A stretch of DNA of 21,370 nucleotides from the IMG/VR virus record IMGVR_UViG_3300037808_000947, positions 1 to 21,370 of that record. The stretch is one strand, 5' to 3'. Origin of the DNA: a virus. Below the pieces are notes generated by a model. It searched no databases and was not told the origin of the DNA. It saw only the letters and a program-made list of their open reading frames with translations. This document shows, one piece after another, positions 3,640-18,378 of this stretch (positions are counted from its first letter, which is position 1; each line of letters opens with the position of its first letter). The position numbers and the translations under genes were made by a program.

Positions 3640-5268
3640 GTGGCCTTCGATCTCCGAGACCTCCGGGGAGCCTCCCTGGAGTGGCTCCTGGACCTCCAGG
3701 TGGGAGAGGATGTCCTCCGGCTCGCCGAGAGGCCTCTGGACGCTCCCACGGGTCCCCAAGGGGCTCTGGAGGCCTACCGGGCGGGGCTCGACTTCGCGGG
3801 GCAGGTCGCGGACTCGGTGGACCCGTTCGCGGATACCCCCTCCTCGCGCCGAGTGGACATCACGGCATACCTCCCGGATGACCTGGACCCCGCCGACCTC
3901 GTGGAGCGGGGCTTCGACTTCTCCGCAGCCCGGGGAGTCCTTTGGCTCTGGAGCCCCCTCACCGGGACGCTGGAGGTGGTGGTCTCCGGCGTGGTCCGGG
4001 GCGTGGAATACGGGCAGACCGGGGAGCCTCTCACCTTCTCGCTGGAGGAGGTCCAGGAGGACGACTCGGCGCGGTTCCCTCCGGCGGACGCCCGGGTCAC
4101 CACGACATCCTGGCCCAACGCGACCGACAAGGCCCTGGGGGAGCGTTATCCCTGGGTTATCGGGGAGCCTGGGACCACCGGGGCCACCGGGGCCTTCCCC
4201 TCTCCCGCCCTCTTCGTGAACTCGACCACGGACGTTCTGCTGGTCGCCGGTCACATCGTCGCAGCCTCGGCGGTCTGGGTCATCAACGACACGGACTCCA
4301 CCGCCGCCTCCGTCGCCGTCTTCAACGCTCGGGACGGCGTGGGGCGAGCCGTCTCGGTGGTGGACCTGACGGCCTCCGGGGTCACGGTGGATGTGGACGC
4401 GGATTACTTCGTCTCGTGGGGCTCCAGCGGAGGAGGTCTCCAGCGCGAGGACGGGAGCCTCCTCGTGGGGGCGGGGGATGTCCTGGAGTGGATGCTGGGT
4501 CACTCCTCCCTCCGGCTGGACCGAGGGAGGACCGCAGCGGCCTCGGTGTTCCTGGATACCTTCCGGCTGGACACCGTTATCTCAGCGAGCCCGGACGCTC
4601 GGTTCGCTCCCTGGGACTGGATCGTGGACCACCTCCTCCCCATCCTCCCGGTGACCGTCCGGCCCTCCTCGGATGGGTTCGCTCCGGTGGTCTGGCGATT
4701 CGATGCCACGGCGGACATGGCCGTGGGCCACCTGGAGGTCTCGCCCTCCCCTCGGGCCGCTCTCCGGTCCGCCGTCTCCTTCTCCTCTCGGGACTCCGTG
4801 GCGAATGAGTTGACCCTCCACTACGCCCAGAATCCTCGGGCCAAGGCCTACCGCAAGCGGTCCGTCTTGACCGGGGACCCCATCACGGCAGAGGCGGACC
4901 CGGATGCGAGCCTCAACTTGTACTGCGTGGCCTCCCGCTCCCGGTATCGGGACCCCTACGGGCAACCGGAGACGGTCCCGCTGGAGGAGTCCTCCGAGGT
5001 CATCTGGTCGGACGCGACGGCTGCGGCAGTGCTAGCGTGGTGGGCGCAGAGGCACGCCCTCCAGGCCCGCCTCGTGGGCTACACGGCGGACCTGGAGATG
5101 GCCGGGAGCCTGGAGCCGGGGGATGTGGTCACGGTGACTCACCCCGCCCTCTCGTGGGCCTCCAAGGTGTTCCTCGTGGAAGAAGTTGTCCGCACCACTG
5201 CGGACGGGGTAGACATCGACTTGCGGGCGGTCGAAGACCTCGCCCAAACTCGGAAGGCCACACCATGA
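3640..5268 (+). CDS. Tail hub / tail-tip structural protein
   Basis: The gene starts at GTG 3640, three bases after the previous stop, with GAGGAGGT as ribosome-binding site. The 542-residue product has no membrane segment. Around residue 165-190 it carries GERYPWVIGEPGTTG, a Tyr-Pro-x-x-x-Gly turn resembling siphophage central tail proteins. Near the C-terminus the stretch LEPGDVVTVTHPALSW, followed by VFLVEEVVRT, resembles the beta-rich domain of tail-hub proteins that ends with a change in local coordinate or ligand-binding loops. Location just after the large tail protein and just before lysis genes supports a distal tail or hub role. It overlaps the next gene by 4 bp (ATGA). The exact family is not certain; a minor tail protein is the main alternative. 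Confidence 0.55.
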   Translation: MAFDLRDLRGASLEWLLDLQVGEDVLRLAERPLDAPTGPQGALEAYRAGLDFAGQVADSVDPFADTPSSRRVDITAYLPDDLDPADLVERGFDFSAARGVLWLWSPLTGTLEVVVSGVVRGVEYGQTGEPLTFSLEEVQEDDSARFPPADARVTTTSWPNATDKALGERYPWVIGEPGTTGATGAFPSPALFVNSTTDVLLVAGHIVAASAVWVINDTDSTAASVAVFNARDGVGRAVSVVDLTASGVTVDVDADYFVSWGSSGGGLQREDGSLLVGAGDVLEWMLGHSSLRLDRGRTAAASVFLDTFRLDTVISASPDARFAPWDWIVDHLLPILPVTVRPSSDGFAPVVWRFDATADMAVGHLEVSPSPRAALRSAVSFSSRDSVANELTLHYAQNPRAKAYRKRSVLTGDPITAEADPDASLNLYCVASRSRYRDPYGQPETVPLEESSEVIWSDATAAAVLAWWAQRHALQARLVGYTADLEMAGSLEPGDVVTVTHPALSWASKVFLVEEVVRTTADGVDIDLRAVEDLAQTRKATP

Positions 5269-14008: not shown

Positions 14009-15058
14009 TCATACCCTTCCTCCGAGCCACGCCAACAGCGCGGACGGCTTCGGGGGCCTCGTGACCCCCGCCTCTTCACAAGCCCCGAGGAGTCCGGCCT
14101 CGGTGACCTTCTCCCCCAGTGCGGTCCGTTCATCTCTCCACCGCAGCAACCAGCGGTGGTTCTCCTGCATCCACTCCTGGGTTGGGTCCACCGCTCCCGA
14201 GGAGATGGCGGCCCCGCCCTGACGGGCCTGGATGATTAGGCGGTCAAAATGTTCCCGGACCTTCCGCCCGCTCAGAAGGTTGGGCCTCCAGAAGCCCGAG
14301 GGGTCCTGGATGTGCGCCCACCGGATAACGGCGCGCACCTCCCCCTCTGAGGCTCCGTCAATGCGTAGGAGCTTCTCCAGGTCCACCTCCCACCCCACGA
14401 CGCCCTCGGCCCCGTCGCGCTTCCCGGCGACTCGGGGAGAGTGGGACCGGATGGACTCCCGGAGGAGGACCGCCAGCCCTCGCGCGGGAGAGGTATTCCC
14501 TTCTTCCTTCTTCTTCTTCTTCTTGGTTCTTGTTCTTGGTTCTTGATTAGGGGATGTCTTTGGCAAAGGCTTAGGGGAAGGCTTTGGCAAAGGCTTCCCG
14601 GAAGGCTTCCCCAGGTCCGGGAACGTCGCATCGAAGGCGCGGAGGAAGGCTTCCCCCTGGAGCCTCTCCCGGATACCTCGGATGGCCTTCTCTCGGAGGT
14701 CCGTCTCGGGGAGCTCCCGGAAGGCCGACCCCCAGGACTTGACGACGTTCGGGCTCGCTGGCGGGTTGTGGGTCACCGCCTTCGGGAGCCATACCAGAGG
14801 AGGCCTCTGAGACCGCTCCAGGAGCCCCGCATCCTCTAGCTCCTGGAGGGCTCGCCGGGTCTTCCCCGCCTCCCATCCAAGACCGTCCGCGAGAGTCCCG
14901 AGACCCGCGCGAAACAGCCCCGGGATGGGTCCCTGGACCTCTCCGGTGAGCAGGTATATCCAGAGGGTCTGAGCGTTAGGCTCCGGCCCCGAGAGGCCCA
15001 GGAACTTCGCGTCCGACCACATACCCCGGGTCACGAGGGAATAGCGTCTCCGGGTCAC
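14009..15058 (-). CDS. Replication initiator-like protein
   Basis: The start is GTG 15058, overlapping the upstream stop by GTGA. The 349-residue protein has a winged-helix-like N-terminal domain at about 5-95 (DGLGWEAGKTRRALQELEDAGLLER), a low-complexity linker at about 150-188 (KPLPKPSPKPLPK, then a run of six Lys), and a C-terminal part at about 195-280 whose sequence VIRWAHIQDPSGFWRPNLLS and VREHFDRLI resembles the ends of phage DnaD-type or replisome-organiser proteins that recruit helicase. Position ahead of the DnaB-type helicase supports an initiator or loader role. The linker DNA has origin-like repeats (see separate entries). Assignment is by architecture and context. Confidence 0.7.
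   Translation of the reverse strand: MTRRRYSLVTRGMWSDAKFLGLSGPEPNAQTLWIYLLTGEVQGPIPGLFRAGLGTLADGLGWEAGKTRRALQELEDAGLLERSQRPPLVWLPKAVTHNPPASPNVVKSWGSAFRELPETDLREKAIRGIRERLQGEAFLRAFDATFPDLGKPSGKPLPKPSPKPLPKTSPNQEPRTRTKKKKKKEEGNTSPARGLAVLLRESIRSHSPRVAGKRDGAEGVVGWEVDLEKLLRIDGASEGEVRAVIRWAHIQDPSGFWRPNLLSGRKVREHFDRLIIQARQGGAAISSGAVDPTQEWMQENHRWLLRWRDERTALGEKVTEAGLLGACEEAGVTRPPKPSALLAWLGGRV
14494..14612. repeat. Iteron-like array and AT-rich tract inside initiator gene
   Basis: From 14558 to 14605 four consecutive 12-bp units have the form CTT-N5-AAG-G, three of them with near-perfect dyad symmetry (CTTTGGCAAAG twice, CTTCCCGGAAG once). Beside them lies a T-rich, pyrimidine-biased tract (14494-14550) with a perfect tandem 13-mer, TTCTTGGTTCTTG, at 14520-14532 and 14533-14545. 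The DNA encodes the Pro/Lys and poly-Lys linker of the initiator. The layout resembles lambda-type origins, with iterons and an AT-rich unwinding region inside the initiator gene. Origin function is inferred. Confidence 0.55.
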
Positions 15059-15273
15059 TTGCGGAGGCTCGCAGCGAAGTCTTCCAGACCAGCGGCCTTC
15101 TCAGCCTCGCGGGCCTCCTTGCGGAGCCAGCCGTCCAGGGCCTCCTCCCTCACGCGCCACTTTCCGGCCAGCTTGAACGCGGGAATGGTTCCGGCCTGGG
15201 CCATCGTGTAGGCCGTGTTCGCGGACACGCCCAAGCGCTTCGCAACGTCGGTGATTCTCAGCAGATTTGACAT
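15055..15273 (-). CDS. HTH_17/MerR-like DNA-binding protein
   Basis: ATG 15273 has GGAGAAG about eight bases upstream. The 72-residue protein is a compact helix-turn-helix of the excisionase/HTH_17 type: LRITDVAKRLGVSANTAYTMAQAGTIPAFKLAGKWRVREEALDGWLRK at about 5-52 has the usual helix-turn-helix followed by a beta wing. It is the first gene of the replication operon and sits next to the divergent promoter region, so an autoregulator or replication regulator is likely; an excisionase is less likely because no integrase gene was seen. It is coupled by GTGA to the initiator gene. Confidence 0.8.
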   Translation of the reverse strand: MSNLLRITDVAKRLGVSANTAYTMAQAGTIPAFKLAGKWRVREEALDGWLRKEAREAEKAAGLEDFAASLRK

Positions 15274-15297
15274 CGGTTACTTCTCCGTGGGGGTTGT

Positions 15298-15375
15298 TCC
15301 CTGACCCGGAACCTATCCCATCCCGTCCCGTTTCTTCCCATCCTTTGGGGTTTATGTCTCCCAGGTTGACCTGGG
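15298..15375. promoter_or_regulatory. Divergent control region with purine-repeat element and palindrome
   Basis: The 163-bp gap 15274-15436 separates the leftward replication operon from the rightward methyltransferase operon. It contains TCCC repeats at 15316, 15321, 15326 and 15336 (GGGA on the minus strand), the 21-bp element also found at 11356-11376, and a 16-bp palindrome CCCAGGTTGACCTGGG at 15360-15375 that contains TTGACC, a -35-like hexamer on the plus strand. Exact promoters could not be fixed. An operator function is likely from symmetry and position. Confidence 0.5.
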
Positions 15376-15436
15376 GACCCCTTATCCCGCACGCTTCCCC
15401 TTCGCGCCCTTGTTCCGGGGCTGGGAGGAGCCTGTG

Positions 15437-16474
15437 GTGGATGTCTTGGTCGAGTTGTGCGCCGGGACCGCCGCGCTCTCATGGGCGACGGCTGGACTAA
15501 AGTTCCCGGTGTCGCGCATGGGCTCAAAGTCCGGGTATGCCTACGCCATCCTATCGGCCCTCGGCCTGCGGGCTGGCGAGCCGTTGCCCGCGTATCTGTG
15601 GAACGAGCCCGACGAGGAGCTAGCGCGCACGCTCGCCCTCCTGGCCTCCCCGGGCGGCGCTGCCGCCGTGGCCGAGGTCATTCGCTCGTGGATACCCTGC
15701 CCCGCTGGACACGCCGAGGGCGGCGCGGATTGGTGCCTTGAGTGCGCGCGGTGGACGAACGGCGCGGACGGTGCCCCGCTCGGTGTAGAGGCTTACGTCG
15801 AGCGCAAGCGGGACGGGACCATTCGGCGATGGGCGTCCGGCCCGAGTACGGGCAAGCAGGACGCGCGGAGGCTGTGGGAGAGGTTGAGGAAGGAGCGGCC
15901 CGAGGCGAGCCCGGAGCGGGAGGGTGCGATGCTCTACATGCTCAACTCTAACGAACTCATCCCGGGTGCCTACGTCAACGGCGAGTGGCGCAATCAGGGC
16001 AAGGGCGGGACGACGTTCGGCGGCGAAAACAACGGATGGGGACCGGACCGCGCCAGCATGAAGCGCCGCATCGACACCCTCTCCCCCATCCCCGCCACCG
16101 TCGTCTGCGGACGCGCGGAGGACGTACCGACGCCGCCGGACTGCTCGCGGGTCCTCTGCTACATCGACCCGCCCTACCTCAATACGACCGGATACGCCCA
16201 CGGGTTCGACCGTGCCGCCGTCGTCGCAGTTGCCCGACGATGGGCCGACGCAGGGGCGCACGTTGTCATCAGCGAGGCCGAGCCCATCCCCGAGTTAGTC
16301 GCGGACGGCTGGCACTTCTGCGACATCGCGGACGCGCGCATTGGTCAGCGGCGGACGTTCAGCAAGCAGCAGCGCGAAGCCTTGACGAGTAACCGCCCGC
16401 TCACGCCCCGCCACTCCTGGCCCGCTCGGGATGCTCTCCCCGGTCAATCGAGCCTGTTCGGGCCGCGGTCGTGA
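15437..16474 (+). CDS. DNA adenine N6-methyltransferase, Dam/D12-like
   Basis: GTG 15437 is chosen for GGAGGAG six bases upstream; GTG 15434 and TTG 15410 are alternatives. The 345-residue protein has an SAM-binding motif LCAGTAALS at 7-15, SRMGSKSGYA at 26-35 (like the KxxGGK region of Dam), and the catalytic DPPY at 244-247. An insertion near 88-103 has Cys88, His92, Cys100 and Cys103 and could bind zinc. The C-terminus ends PARDALPGQSSLFGPRS; QSSLF at 337-341 fits a sliding-clamp-binding pentapeptide. Target base adenine is inferred from family. Codon style is GCG/CGC-rich, unlike the backbone, suggesting acquisition. Confidence 0.82.
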   Translation: MDVLVELCAGTAALSWATAGLKFPVSRMGSKSGYAYAILSALGLRAGEPLPAYLWNEPDEELARTLALLASPGGAAAVAEVIRSWIPCPAGHAEGGADWCLECARWTNGADGAPLGVEAYVERKRDGTIRRWASGPSTGKQDARRLWERLRKERPEASPEREGAMLYMLNSNELIPGAYVNGEWRNQGKGGTTFGGENNGWGPDRASMKRRIDTLSPIPATVVCGRAEDVPTPPDCSRVLCYIDPPYLNTTGYAHGFDRAAVVAVARRWADAGAHVVISEAEPIPELVADGWHFCDIADARIGQRRTFSKQQREALTSNRPLTPRHSWPARDALPGQSSLFGPRS

Positions 16475-16947
16475 GCATCGATATGCAGACGCCCCGCGGT
16501 TACTCTCGGCTGCTCGCGGCGACGCTACTGCTTGCTCACGGCCTGGACTGGAACCCCGGCTGGTGGGCTCCTAGCTATGTCCTGTGTCGGATGGGCCTGA
16601 TCACGAAGCCGCGCTCGCTGAGACTGCGGCGGAATCGGTCGATCATCCAAAACGTGCGGAGTCATTCGACGCTGGAGGCGGCCGACGAGCACTTGGGCGC
16701 TCAGTGGTTCGCGGCCAGCTCGCTAGGGTTTGGCCCGAAGTATTCGCCCCGCCTTCGGCTGACGGCCAAGGGGATCGAGGTCGCGACGCGGGACACGCGG
16801 GCGAAGTGGCTCACCGACGCGGTCCGCACGCTGGAATATCGGGAGGCCATCGCCGAGACCGCGGACTACATCGCGACGCTGCCCGACGTGGCGGTCTCGC
16901 TGGCGGCTACACGGAACCGGGCGGCGGCCGACGGGTCCGCCCGGTGA
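16471..16947 (+). CDS. Unknown protein, 158 aa
   Basis: The GTG 16471 overlaps the methyltransferase stop (GTGA); an internal ATG at 16483 could also be used. The product has helical segments, Arg-rich patches (LRLRRNRSII) and a stretch RLRLTAKGIEVA resembling the wing or last helix of a winged-helix protein, but no clear family. The gene contains three GATC sites in under 200 bases, while most backbone genes have none, and is flanked on both sides by the same 42-bp coding sequence (16421-16462 and 16962-17003). This suggests a mobile or recombination-delivered gene linked with the methyltransferases. A role in modification or regulation is speculative. Confidence 0.7.
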   Translation: MSIDMQTPRGYSRLLAATLLLAHGLDWNPGWWAPSYVLCRMGLITKPRSLRLRRNRSIIQNVRSHSTLEAADEHLGAQWFAASSLGFGPKYSPRLRLTAKGIEVATRDTRAKWLTDAVRTLEYREAIAETADYIATLPDVAVSLAATRNRAAADGSAR

Positions 16948-16961
16948 TTAGTTGCACGCCG

Positions 16962-17015
16962 CCCGCTCGAGATGCTCTCCCCGGTCAATCGAGTCTCTTT
17001 GGAGGTAGCCCATGA
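16962..17015 (+). pseudogene. Relic of a gene tail related to the Dam-like methyltransferase C-terminus
   Basis: The frame here reads PARDALPGQSSLFGGSP then a stop. Its first 14 residues are identical to the C-terminus of the Dam-like methyltransferase. The two DNA copies (16421-16462 and 16962-17003) differ at five of 42 positions, every one a silent third-codon change. No start or ribosome-binding site precedes it and similarity stops abruptly upstream, so it looks like the end of a lost or replaced gene left between 16947 and 17044. Confidence 0.6.
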
Positions 17016-17043
17016 CCCTCTCCCCTTTTCACTCGGAGGAACG

Positions 17044-18378
17044 ATGACGAAGAAGAAACCCGAAGCGGCTGCGGTGTGGTGTCCGGTCGAAGACCTGACC
17101 CCCTGGGACGACAACCCCCGGCTCAACGACGAAGCCGTGGGGAAGGTCCGGGACTCCATCAAGCGGTTCGGGTTCGCCGCTCCCATCGTGGCTCGCAAGG
17201 AGGACGGAATGGTCATCGCCGGACACACCCGGCTCCGGGCTGCGGTTGAGTTGGGGCTGGAGAAGGTCCCCGTCCGGTGGATGGACCTGGACCCGGCGGA
17301 CGCTCGGATGCTCGCCCTCGCTGATAACAAACTCGGAGAGGTCGCAGCGTGGGACGACGACCTGCTACGGAAGGTCCTGGAGGACCTCGCCAGCGAGCCG
17401 GACCTGGACCTGTCTGGCCTGGGTTGGGAGGAGGAGGACCTGGAGGCCATCCTGGGGGACGACGACCCCACCGGCCCGGAAGACGGAGACCTGACGGAGC
17501 CCCCCGAGGAGCCGGATAGCGCGGTGGGCGAGGTCTACGAACTCGGACCGCATCGGCTTGTCTGCGGGGACTGCCGGGACCCCTCGGTGGTCTCTCGACT
17601 GCTCGACGGGCAGAGCATCAACGTGGCGCTCACATCGCCGCCGTATGCGAGTCAGCGCAAATACGACGAATCCAGCGGGTTCCGACCCATCCCGCCCGCC
17701 GAATACGTGGAGTGGTTCGACGCTGTACAGGCGAACGTCCGCGAGCATCTAGCGGCGGACGGCTCGTGGTTCGTGAACATCAAGGAGAGTGCGGAGGGCG
17801 GCGCTAGGAACCTATACGTGAAGGATCTCACGCTGGCACATGCTCGGCAGTGGGGGTGGCGATTCGTCGACGAGTTCTGCTGGAGGAATACCGCGAACGG
17901 CGTCCCCGGTACGTGGCCGGACAGGTTCAAGAACGCTTGGGAGCCAGTCTTTCACTACTCAACCGGAGCGCCCCGGTTCAGGCCGGGCAACGTGAAGCAC
18001 GCCACGGTCGACGCCTTCAACTACGGAGAGCGGGAGGCGTCGCGCACCGGGACCCCGTTTATGCGAGGCGGCGCCCGGAAGGATGGGGCGGCGCTGCCGA
18101 GTAACGTGGTCGAGGCTCGGCCGGAGTTGGCGGGCATCCACTCTGCACCGTTCCCGCTCGCGCTCCCCGACTTCTTCATTCGCGCATTCTCCGACGCCGG
18201 AGACATCATCTTCGACCCGTTCCTCGGCAGCGGGACCACGCTTGTCGCAGCGGCGAAGACCGACCGCGTGGCCTACGGGTGCGAGATAAGCGCAGGGTAC
18301 TGCGACGTTATCCGCCGCCGATGGACGACCTGGGCCGACGAGGCTGGAGTGGACCCAGGACCCGGGGCTCTGCGGTGA
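17044..18378 (+). CDS. ParB-like domain fused to DNA (N4/N6) methyltransferase
   Basis: ATG 17044 follows GGAGGA at a good distance. The 444-residue protein has an N-terminal ParB/Srx-like domain (about 10-100: DNPRLNDE at 23-30, GHTRLRAA at 60-67), an acidic linker (about 115-165) and a methyltransferase part with catalytic TSPPY at 197-201 and SAM-binding FDPFLGSGTT at 390-399, the beta-class order. It could methylate cytosine N4 or adenine N6; the motif does not decide. ParB-methyltransferase fusions are known in phages and plasmids. Codon style changes near the domain junction (about 17600). It overlaps the resolvase gene by GTGA. Confidence 0.88.
   Translation: MTKKKPEAAAVWCPVEDLTPWDDNPRLNDEAVGKVRDSIKRFGFAAPIVARKEDGMVIAGHTRLRAAVELGLEKVPVRWMDLDPADARMLALADNKLGEVAAWDDDLLRKVLEDLASEPDLDLSGLGWEEEDLEAILGDDDPTGPEDGDLTEPPEEPDSAVGEVYELGPHRLVCGDCRDPSVVSRLLDGQSINVALTSPPYASQRKYDESSGFRPIPPAEYVEWFDAVQANVREHLAADGSWFVNIKESAEGGARNLYVKDLTLAHARQWGWRFVDEFCWRNTANGVPGTWPDRFKNAWEPVFHYSTGAPRFRPGNVKHATVDAFNYGEREASRTGTPFMRGGARKDGAALPSNVVEARPELAGIHSAPFPLALPDFFIRAFSDAGDIIFDPFLGSGTTLVAAAKTDRVAYGCEISAGYCDVIRRRWTTWADEAGVDPGPGALR

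Follow-up and report, generated by a model that had tools for sequence, protein, structure and literature searches.

RESULTS

Organization of the locus

The DNA analyzed here, referred to as the window, is the whole 21,370-nucleotide (nt) stretch of IMG/VR virus record IMGVR_UViG_3300037808_000947 (positions 1 to 21,370). The features that concern us lie between a small helix-turn-helix gene on one side and a ParB-methyltransferase gene on the other, and their coordinates are collected in Table 1.

Table 1. Features of the locus, in window coordinates
Feature	Position	Strand	Remarks
Small helix-turn-helix gene	15055..15273	-	excisionase-like, by eye; left border, common to L003 and L083
Divergent intergenic region	15274..15409	.	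L003 alignment ends near 15353
Predicted Dam-like (D12-type) DNA adenine methyltransferase	15410..16474	+	354 aa, TTG start as listed, ends in copy 1
Copy 1 of tail	16421..16462	+	PARDALPGQSSLFG, C terminus of methyltransferase
158-aa gene	16471..16947	+	GTG start overlaps methyltransferase stop (GTGA)
23-codon frame, MISCTPPARDALPGQSSLFGGSP	16944..17015	+	contains copy 2; GTGA overlap with 158-aa gene, ATGA downstream; scar or small peptide
Copy 2 of tail	16962..17003	+	same 14 residues as copy 1, five silent differences
11-codon open reading frame (ORF), MTLSPFHSEER	17012..17047	+	stop overlaps next start (ATGA)
ParB-N/N6_N4 methyltransferase fusion	17044..18378	+	right border of insertion

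Four successive junctions are 4-nt overlaps (GTGA, GTGA, ATGA, and ATGA), the last of which reaches the start of the ParB-methyltransferase gene. The GGAGG ribosome-binding site of the 11-codon ORF (about 17000 to 17004) falls within the last codons of copy 2 (GGA GGT). The ParB-methyltransferase gene matches phrog_498 (E = 2.7e-86) and Pfam families PF01555 and PF02195. Its frame also stays open upstream through copy 2, as a 468-aa ORF from the ATG at 16972, which gives copy 2 two open frames; the homolog in the related record L003 starts at the position of 17044.

The 158-aa ORF is a real coding frame between the two copies of the tail. Its third-position G+C content (0.843) is similar to that of the neighboring genes, and the codon score is +0.154 for its frame versus −0.227 for the one containing copy 2. 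The original prediction had placed a 158-aa gene at this point, and the codon statistics uphold it. An overlapping 143-aa ORF (16584 to 17015) was considered as the true gene and was rejected on the same codon statistics. The 158-aa protein had no match in Pfam, PHROGs, NCBIfam, PADLOC, PDB sequences, phages, plasmids, or viral contigs, and tblastn against 189 loci gave weak matches only (best E = 0.18). An AlphaFold model made from the single sequence had a pLDDT of 38.7 and was useless. The 23-codon frame in which copy 2 sits contains no recognized gene.

Two copies of a 14-residue tail

The tail is encoded twice, in 42 nt each time and at a spacing of 541 nt. The copies differ at five bases (repeat positions 9, 33, 36, 39, and 42), all of them third codon positions and all silent, exactly as originally described. 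The pair was also recovered by a repeat search of the window (family D10). When all six frames of the window were scanned for the 14 residues, the two copies matched at 14/14 and 14/14 and the next best site at 8/14, so the repetition is beyond chance. Five random single-base changes would all be silent with a probability of 0.0019 to 0.0034, for transition weights of 1 to 4. The copies share unusual codons and a 23-bp block without a mismatch. The differences cluster toward the 3′ end, with four of the five in the final four codons (P = 0.005, in a test chosen after the clustering had been seen).

The similarity has abrupt edges. On the left, PAR is preceded by W in copy 1 and by P in copy 2; on the right, FG is followed by PRS and a stop in copy 1 and by GSP and a stop in copy 2. 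There is no similarity between the copies outside the 14 residues. Among 33 sequences scanned, only the window has a second copy of the tail. An assembly duplication was considered and rejected because the differences between the copies are codon-aware.

A Dam-like methyltransferase carries copy 1

The gene that ends in copy 1 was originally said to encode a methyltransferase, and both profile and structural comparisons agree. It matches phrog_56 (DNA methyltransferase; E = 5.6e-8) and contains the D-P-P-Y catalytic motif as IDPPY. IDPPY is invariant in a 30-sequence alignment (A2), of which 28 rows were chosen by a DPPY-pattern scan, the exceptions being the window row and the L002-record row. 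The AlphaFold model of the protein has a mean pLDDT of 69, with a poorly predicted central region. Its best structural matches in Foldseek were the Dam-type enzymes DpnM, EcoDam, and T4 Dam (2dpm, E = 6.3e-6; 4rtq and others were also among the best), with TM-scores of only 0.32 to 0.38 over the query. The profile match to 2dpm had an E value of 0.003. From the predicted structure, the product is probably a Dam-like DNA adenine methyltransferase. Because no Pfam family matched at E = 0.1, we call it Dam-like and not a member of Pfam D12. It resembles the Dam-type (D12) enzymes DpnM, EcoDam, and T4 Dam in its DPPY motif and predicted fold but differs from them in lacking a Pfam match, in its large and variable central region, and in its C-terminal Q-x-x-L-F tail.

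Two homologs were found, in L002 (72% identity) and L160 (61% identity). With the window protein alone as the query, no methyltransferase relatives were detected in viral contigs, phages, or plasmids. A two-row alignment as the query matched only the L002 record in viral contigs and nothing in genome contigs. The wider methyltransferase family came from a scan with the DNA pattern DPPYxxTxGYxH, which gave 68 viral stretches. A tblastn search with a family member (L122) returned no phage record, whereas a control query with the ParB-methyltransferase returned 123. Methyltransferase profile searches of 4, 396, and 398 genomes, a set with no positive control among them, found none.

The central region of the family is seemingly modular. 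It contains a unit of ∼60 to 75 residues whose end is marked by DARxxxP or RAED-type motifs. Of 28 proteins, 10 have two such units and the rest have one or none that is recognizable; the window protein has one. ORFs bearing the unit are found in L106, L107, L109, L116, L131, L137, L148, L163, L164, and L002. These units may be exchangeable target-recognition modules.

A conserved C-terminal motif

The duplicated tail contains a motif that is common in the family. Q..LF occurs within the last 12 residues of 30 of the 35 enzymes of the FSxQQ type but of only 2 of the 33 others among the 68 stretches (Fisher P = 7e-12, a value that overstates independence because the sequences are related). Enzymes were assigned to the FSxQQ type when their protein terminates in a segment of that kind. 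The background frequency of Q..LF among open frames of at least 150 codons in the loci compared, methyltransferases included, is 44/3,724. Of the five exceptions, L163 ends in QVALW, L100 and L155 end in QCSHL, and L101 and L158 have nothing similar. Some family members have FSKQK or FSNQQ near the end and no Q..LF (L100, L102, L118, L127, L130, L140, L147, L152, and L155); several of these end in TPLEHEKVAP. In all of the listed members the tail was either lost or never gained.

In the 30-sequence alignment, two residues of the window protein, Q346 and L349, show conservation of at least 90%. The spacing between FSxQQ and the motif varies: most members have 16, L002 and L160 have 24, and L142 has 36. 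The last nine residues (346 to 354) have pLDDT values below 50, low confidence being only a proxy for disorder. Judged by its sequence, a conserved tail on a variable linker behaves like a short docking motif.

In bacteria, the canonical motif for binding the clamp reads Q-phi-x-[L/M]-[F/L]; its position 2 is tolerant but best as Leu, according to a review (PMC11139829). In transposases the motifs are mostly C-terminal, with Q1 and hydrophobic positions 4 and 5 conserved, according to PMC4549789. Both copies of the tail read QSSLF and so have the Gln at position 1, the Leu at 4, and the Phe at 5. Position 2 is not aliphatic: it is S in the window, and R, S, G, A, and Q are the commonest residues among 25 distinct tails. 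Because of this position, we describe the tails as resembling the clamp motif and do not file them as beta-clamp-binding members. The tail may nevertheless dock on the host replication clamp.

The cassette is missing from syntenic relatives

A terminase search identified L003 (91% identity), L083 (83%), and L084 (83%) as relatives. The local alignment with L003 covers window positions 15164 to 15353, that is, the start of the small helix-turn-helix gene and the promoter region after it. Since this alignment ends near 15353, the insertion begins at or after that point. In L003 the ParB-methyltransferase gene (71% identity) directly follows the left border, with no cassette between. L083 has the same gene order, with a different ParB/methyltransferase set and the equivalent of the small gene at 3757 to 3978. 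In the syntenic place of L083 (5724 to 6044, plus strand), beside that other set, is a small protein that resembles S-adenosylmethionine decarboxylase by eye.

The methyltransferase was not found in the records of L003, L083, L084, and L004. Nor was the 158-aa gene found in these four or in that of L002, five records in all. Several of the records are short fragments, and absence at this locus is firm for L003 and L083 only. The methyltransferase, the 158-aa gene, and both tails are all missing from L003 and L083, the nearest syntenic phages, which makes the cassette an insertion. Genomes without the 158-aa gene, which the original prediction had expected, thus do exist, but they lack the whole cassette and not that gene alone.

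The L002 record has its methyltransferase elsewhere, in a leftward gene cluster, and there it ends in PARDALPGQEGLFG; since L002 has its copy at another place, the gene moves. The third methyltransferase of the clade, in L160, ends in PSRDALTGQPSLFG. Directly after it is an ORF that looks like an HNH endonuclease by eye (L160, 8075 to 8773, minus strand); it occupies the place of the 158-aa gene of the window, and there is no second tail copy there.

Five bases distinguish copy 1 from copy 2. Each copy differs from the L002 tail at 13 bases, and from the L160 tail copy 1 differs at 14 and copy 2 at 17. In residues, copy 2 has no change relative to copy 1, 2 relative to L002, and 3 relative to L160. 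A scan of viral contigs for DALxGQxxLFG gave 21 stretches, in which, apart from frames open by chance, the tail is a gene end only in L002 and L160. The same scan of a genome collection gave 7 stretches, none of them a gene end with the tail. Within the collections searched, from which very near records may be missing, the tail is thus restricted to this methyltransferase clade.

DISCUSSION

Origin of the second copy

We think the chances are somewhat better than even that copy 2 is what remains of a diverged allele of the same methyltransferase gene, whose 3′ end was displaced when the present methyltransferase and the 158-aa gene arrived. The methyltransferase gene, with the 158-aa gene behind it, would have been placed between the divergent promoter region and the ParB-methyltransferase gene. 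The incoming unit would have joined inside the tail of the resident allele, and the old last codons would remain as copy 2. Both tails would have been under selection for coding before the event, as carriers of the C-terminal docking motif Q-x-x-L-F. That the divergence is silent-only would follow from the conservation of this motif in the family. We infer both the order of these events and the recombination.

The silent-only pattern, the lack of the cassette in syntenic relatives, the confinement of the tail to one clade, and the conservation of Q..LF all favor displacement. Several observations argue against it. No genome was found with an uninterrupted allele ending in copy 2, and no mobility gene was recognized. 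The W that precedes the tail in all three clade members has no counterpart before copy 2, which leaves little homology outside the motif. Plain allelic divergence does not explain why the differences cluster in the final four codons. The GTGA and ATGA overlaps that flank the 23-codon frame would also fit a working small gene, and the role of the 158-aa gene as cargo is assumed, since no homolog was found.

One alternative is that copy 2 was the original C terminus of the 158-aa protein, severed by a one-base frameshift close to that end, either real or a sequencing error. The stop of the 158-aa gene (16947) and the start of copy 2 (16962) are only 14 nt apart, in frames shifted by one base. 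However, the tail with its DALPG linker was found only on methyltransferases, and the 158-aa protein has no homolog for comparison. We regard this origin, in which two adjacent proteins would have had the same docking tail, as unlikely.

Another alternative is that copy 2 is a working gene, translated by coupling into a 23-residue peptide that would be a free docking motif and might sit on the host clamp or help the methyltransferase. The silent-only divergence agrees with a peptide, as do the 4-nt overlaps that delimit the frame and the fact that, within the family tail, what is conserved is the motif. Against a peptide, there is no evident ribosome-binding site before its GTG (by eye), 4-nt overlaps occur at other junctions here too and need only a purine before TGA, and none of 32 other tail-bearing loci provides another case. 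Silent-only differences do not separate a recent scar from a conserved peptide because both yield them. We consider a working peptide gene rather unlikely. Less likely still is the elaboration in which the phage would deploy a clamp-recruited methyltransferase together with a stand-alone 23-residue decoy of the same motif, derived from the tail of such an enzyme, aimed at the host clamp, and coupled stop to start.

Copy 2 had originally been read as the remnant of a separate methyltransferase-like gene. A methyltransferase origin is the natural reading, as the tail is found elsewhere only on the methyltransferases of L002 and L160, but "separate" is stronger than the data allow: the data agree no less well with an allele of the same gene, because copy 2 is closer to copy 1 than to the tails of L002 and L160. 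In its strict form, a second methyltransferase gene in tandem would also yield silent-only differences and a tail otherwise confined to methyltransferases. Neither L002 nor L160 has a tandem, each having one tail copy in the stretches examined, and copy 2 resembles copy 1 more closely than it does any other tail in the family. We hold a tandem gene to be rather improbable. The full gene ending in copy 2 that was expected in relatives at this locus was not found; in no relative does a gene end in copy 2. Overall, the earlier interpretation is partly supported. It missed the family-wide C-terminal motif, which alone explains the silent-only divergence, and therefore copy 2 may still be functional.

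That the repeat is a DNA-level recombination or regulatory site, coding by accident, is very improbable: the 23-bp identical block would suit such a site, but the codon pattern disfavors it, with all five differences silent and in third positions (P = 0.002 to 0.003) and the Q and L of the motif conserved family-wide.

Comparison with known systems and implications

The arrangement is like that of the E. coli e14 prophage in icd, where two versions of the 3′ end of a gene, with mostly silent differences, flank inserted DNA. Unlike in e14, the inserted 541 bp hold one unrecognized 158-aa gene and no recognized integrase. In addition, no uninterrupted methyltransferase allele was found here, and sister phages are without the target gene altogether.

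The tail is like the beta-clamp-binding motifs, which lie at the C terminus of Pol II, Pol IV, and many transposases (PMC11139829 and PMC4549789), in its Gln1, Leu4, and Phe5 and in its apparently disordered C-terminal setting; it is unlike the canonical motif at position 2. What appears to be new here is that the tail is a conserved C-terminal Q-x-x-L-F motif that, by sequence comparison, resembles the beta-clamp-binding motif except at position 2. A literature search of titles and the starts of abstracts gave no report of clamp-docking phage methyltransferases, which is weak evidence of absence. The main text of the review (PMC11139829) contains no words beginning with methyltransferase or methylase.

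The scar is one more case of gene exchange among phages; the conserved methyltransferase tail is of more interest. It points to Dam-like methyltransferases of uncultured phages that keep Q-x-x-L-F while the preceding linker changes in length and sequence. If the tail binds the host sliding clamp, phage DNA would be methylated right behind the replication fork, and such fork-coupled methylation, if true, would be a simple protection of newly made DNA.
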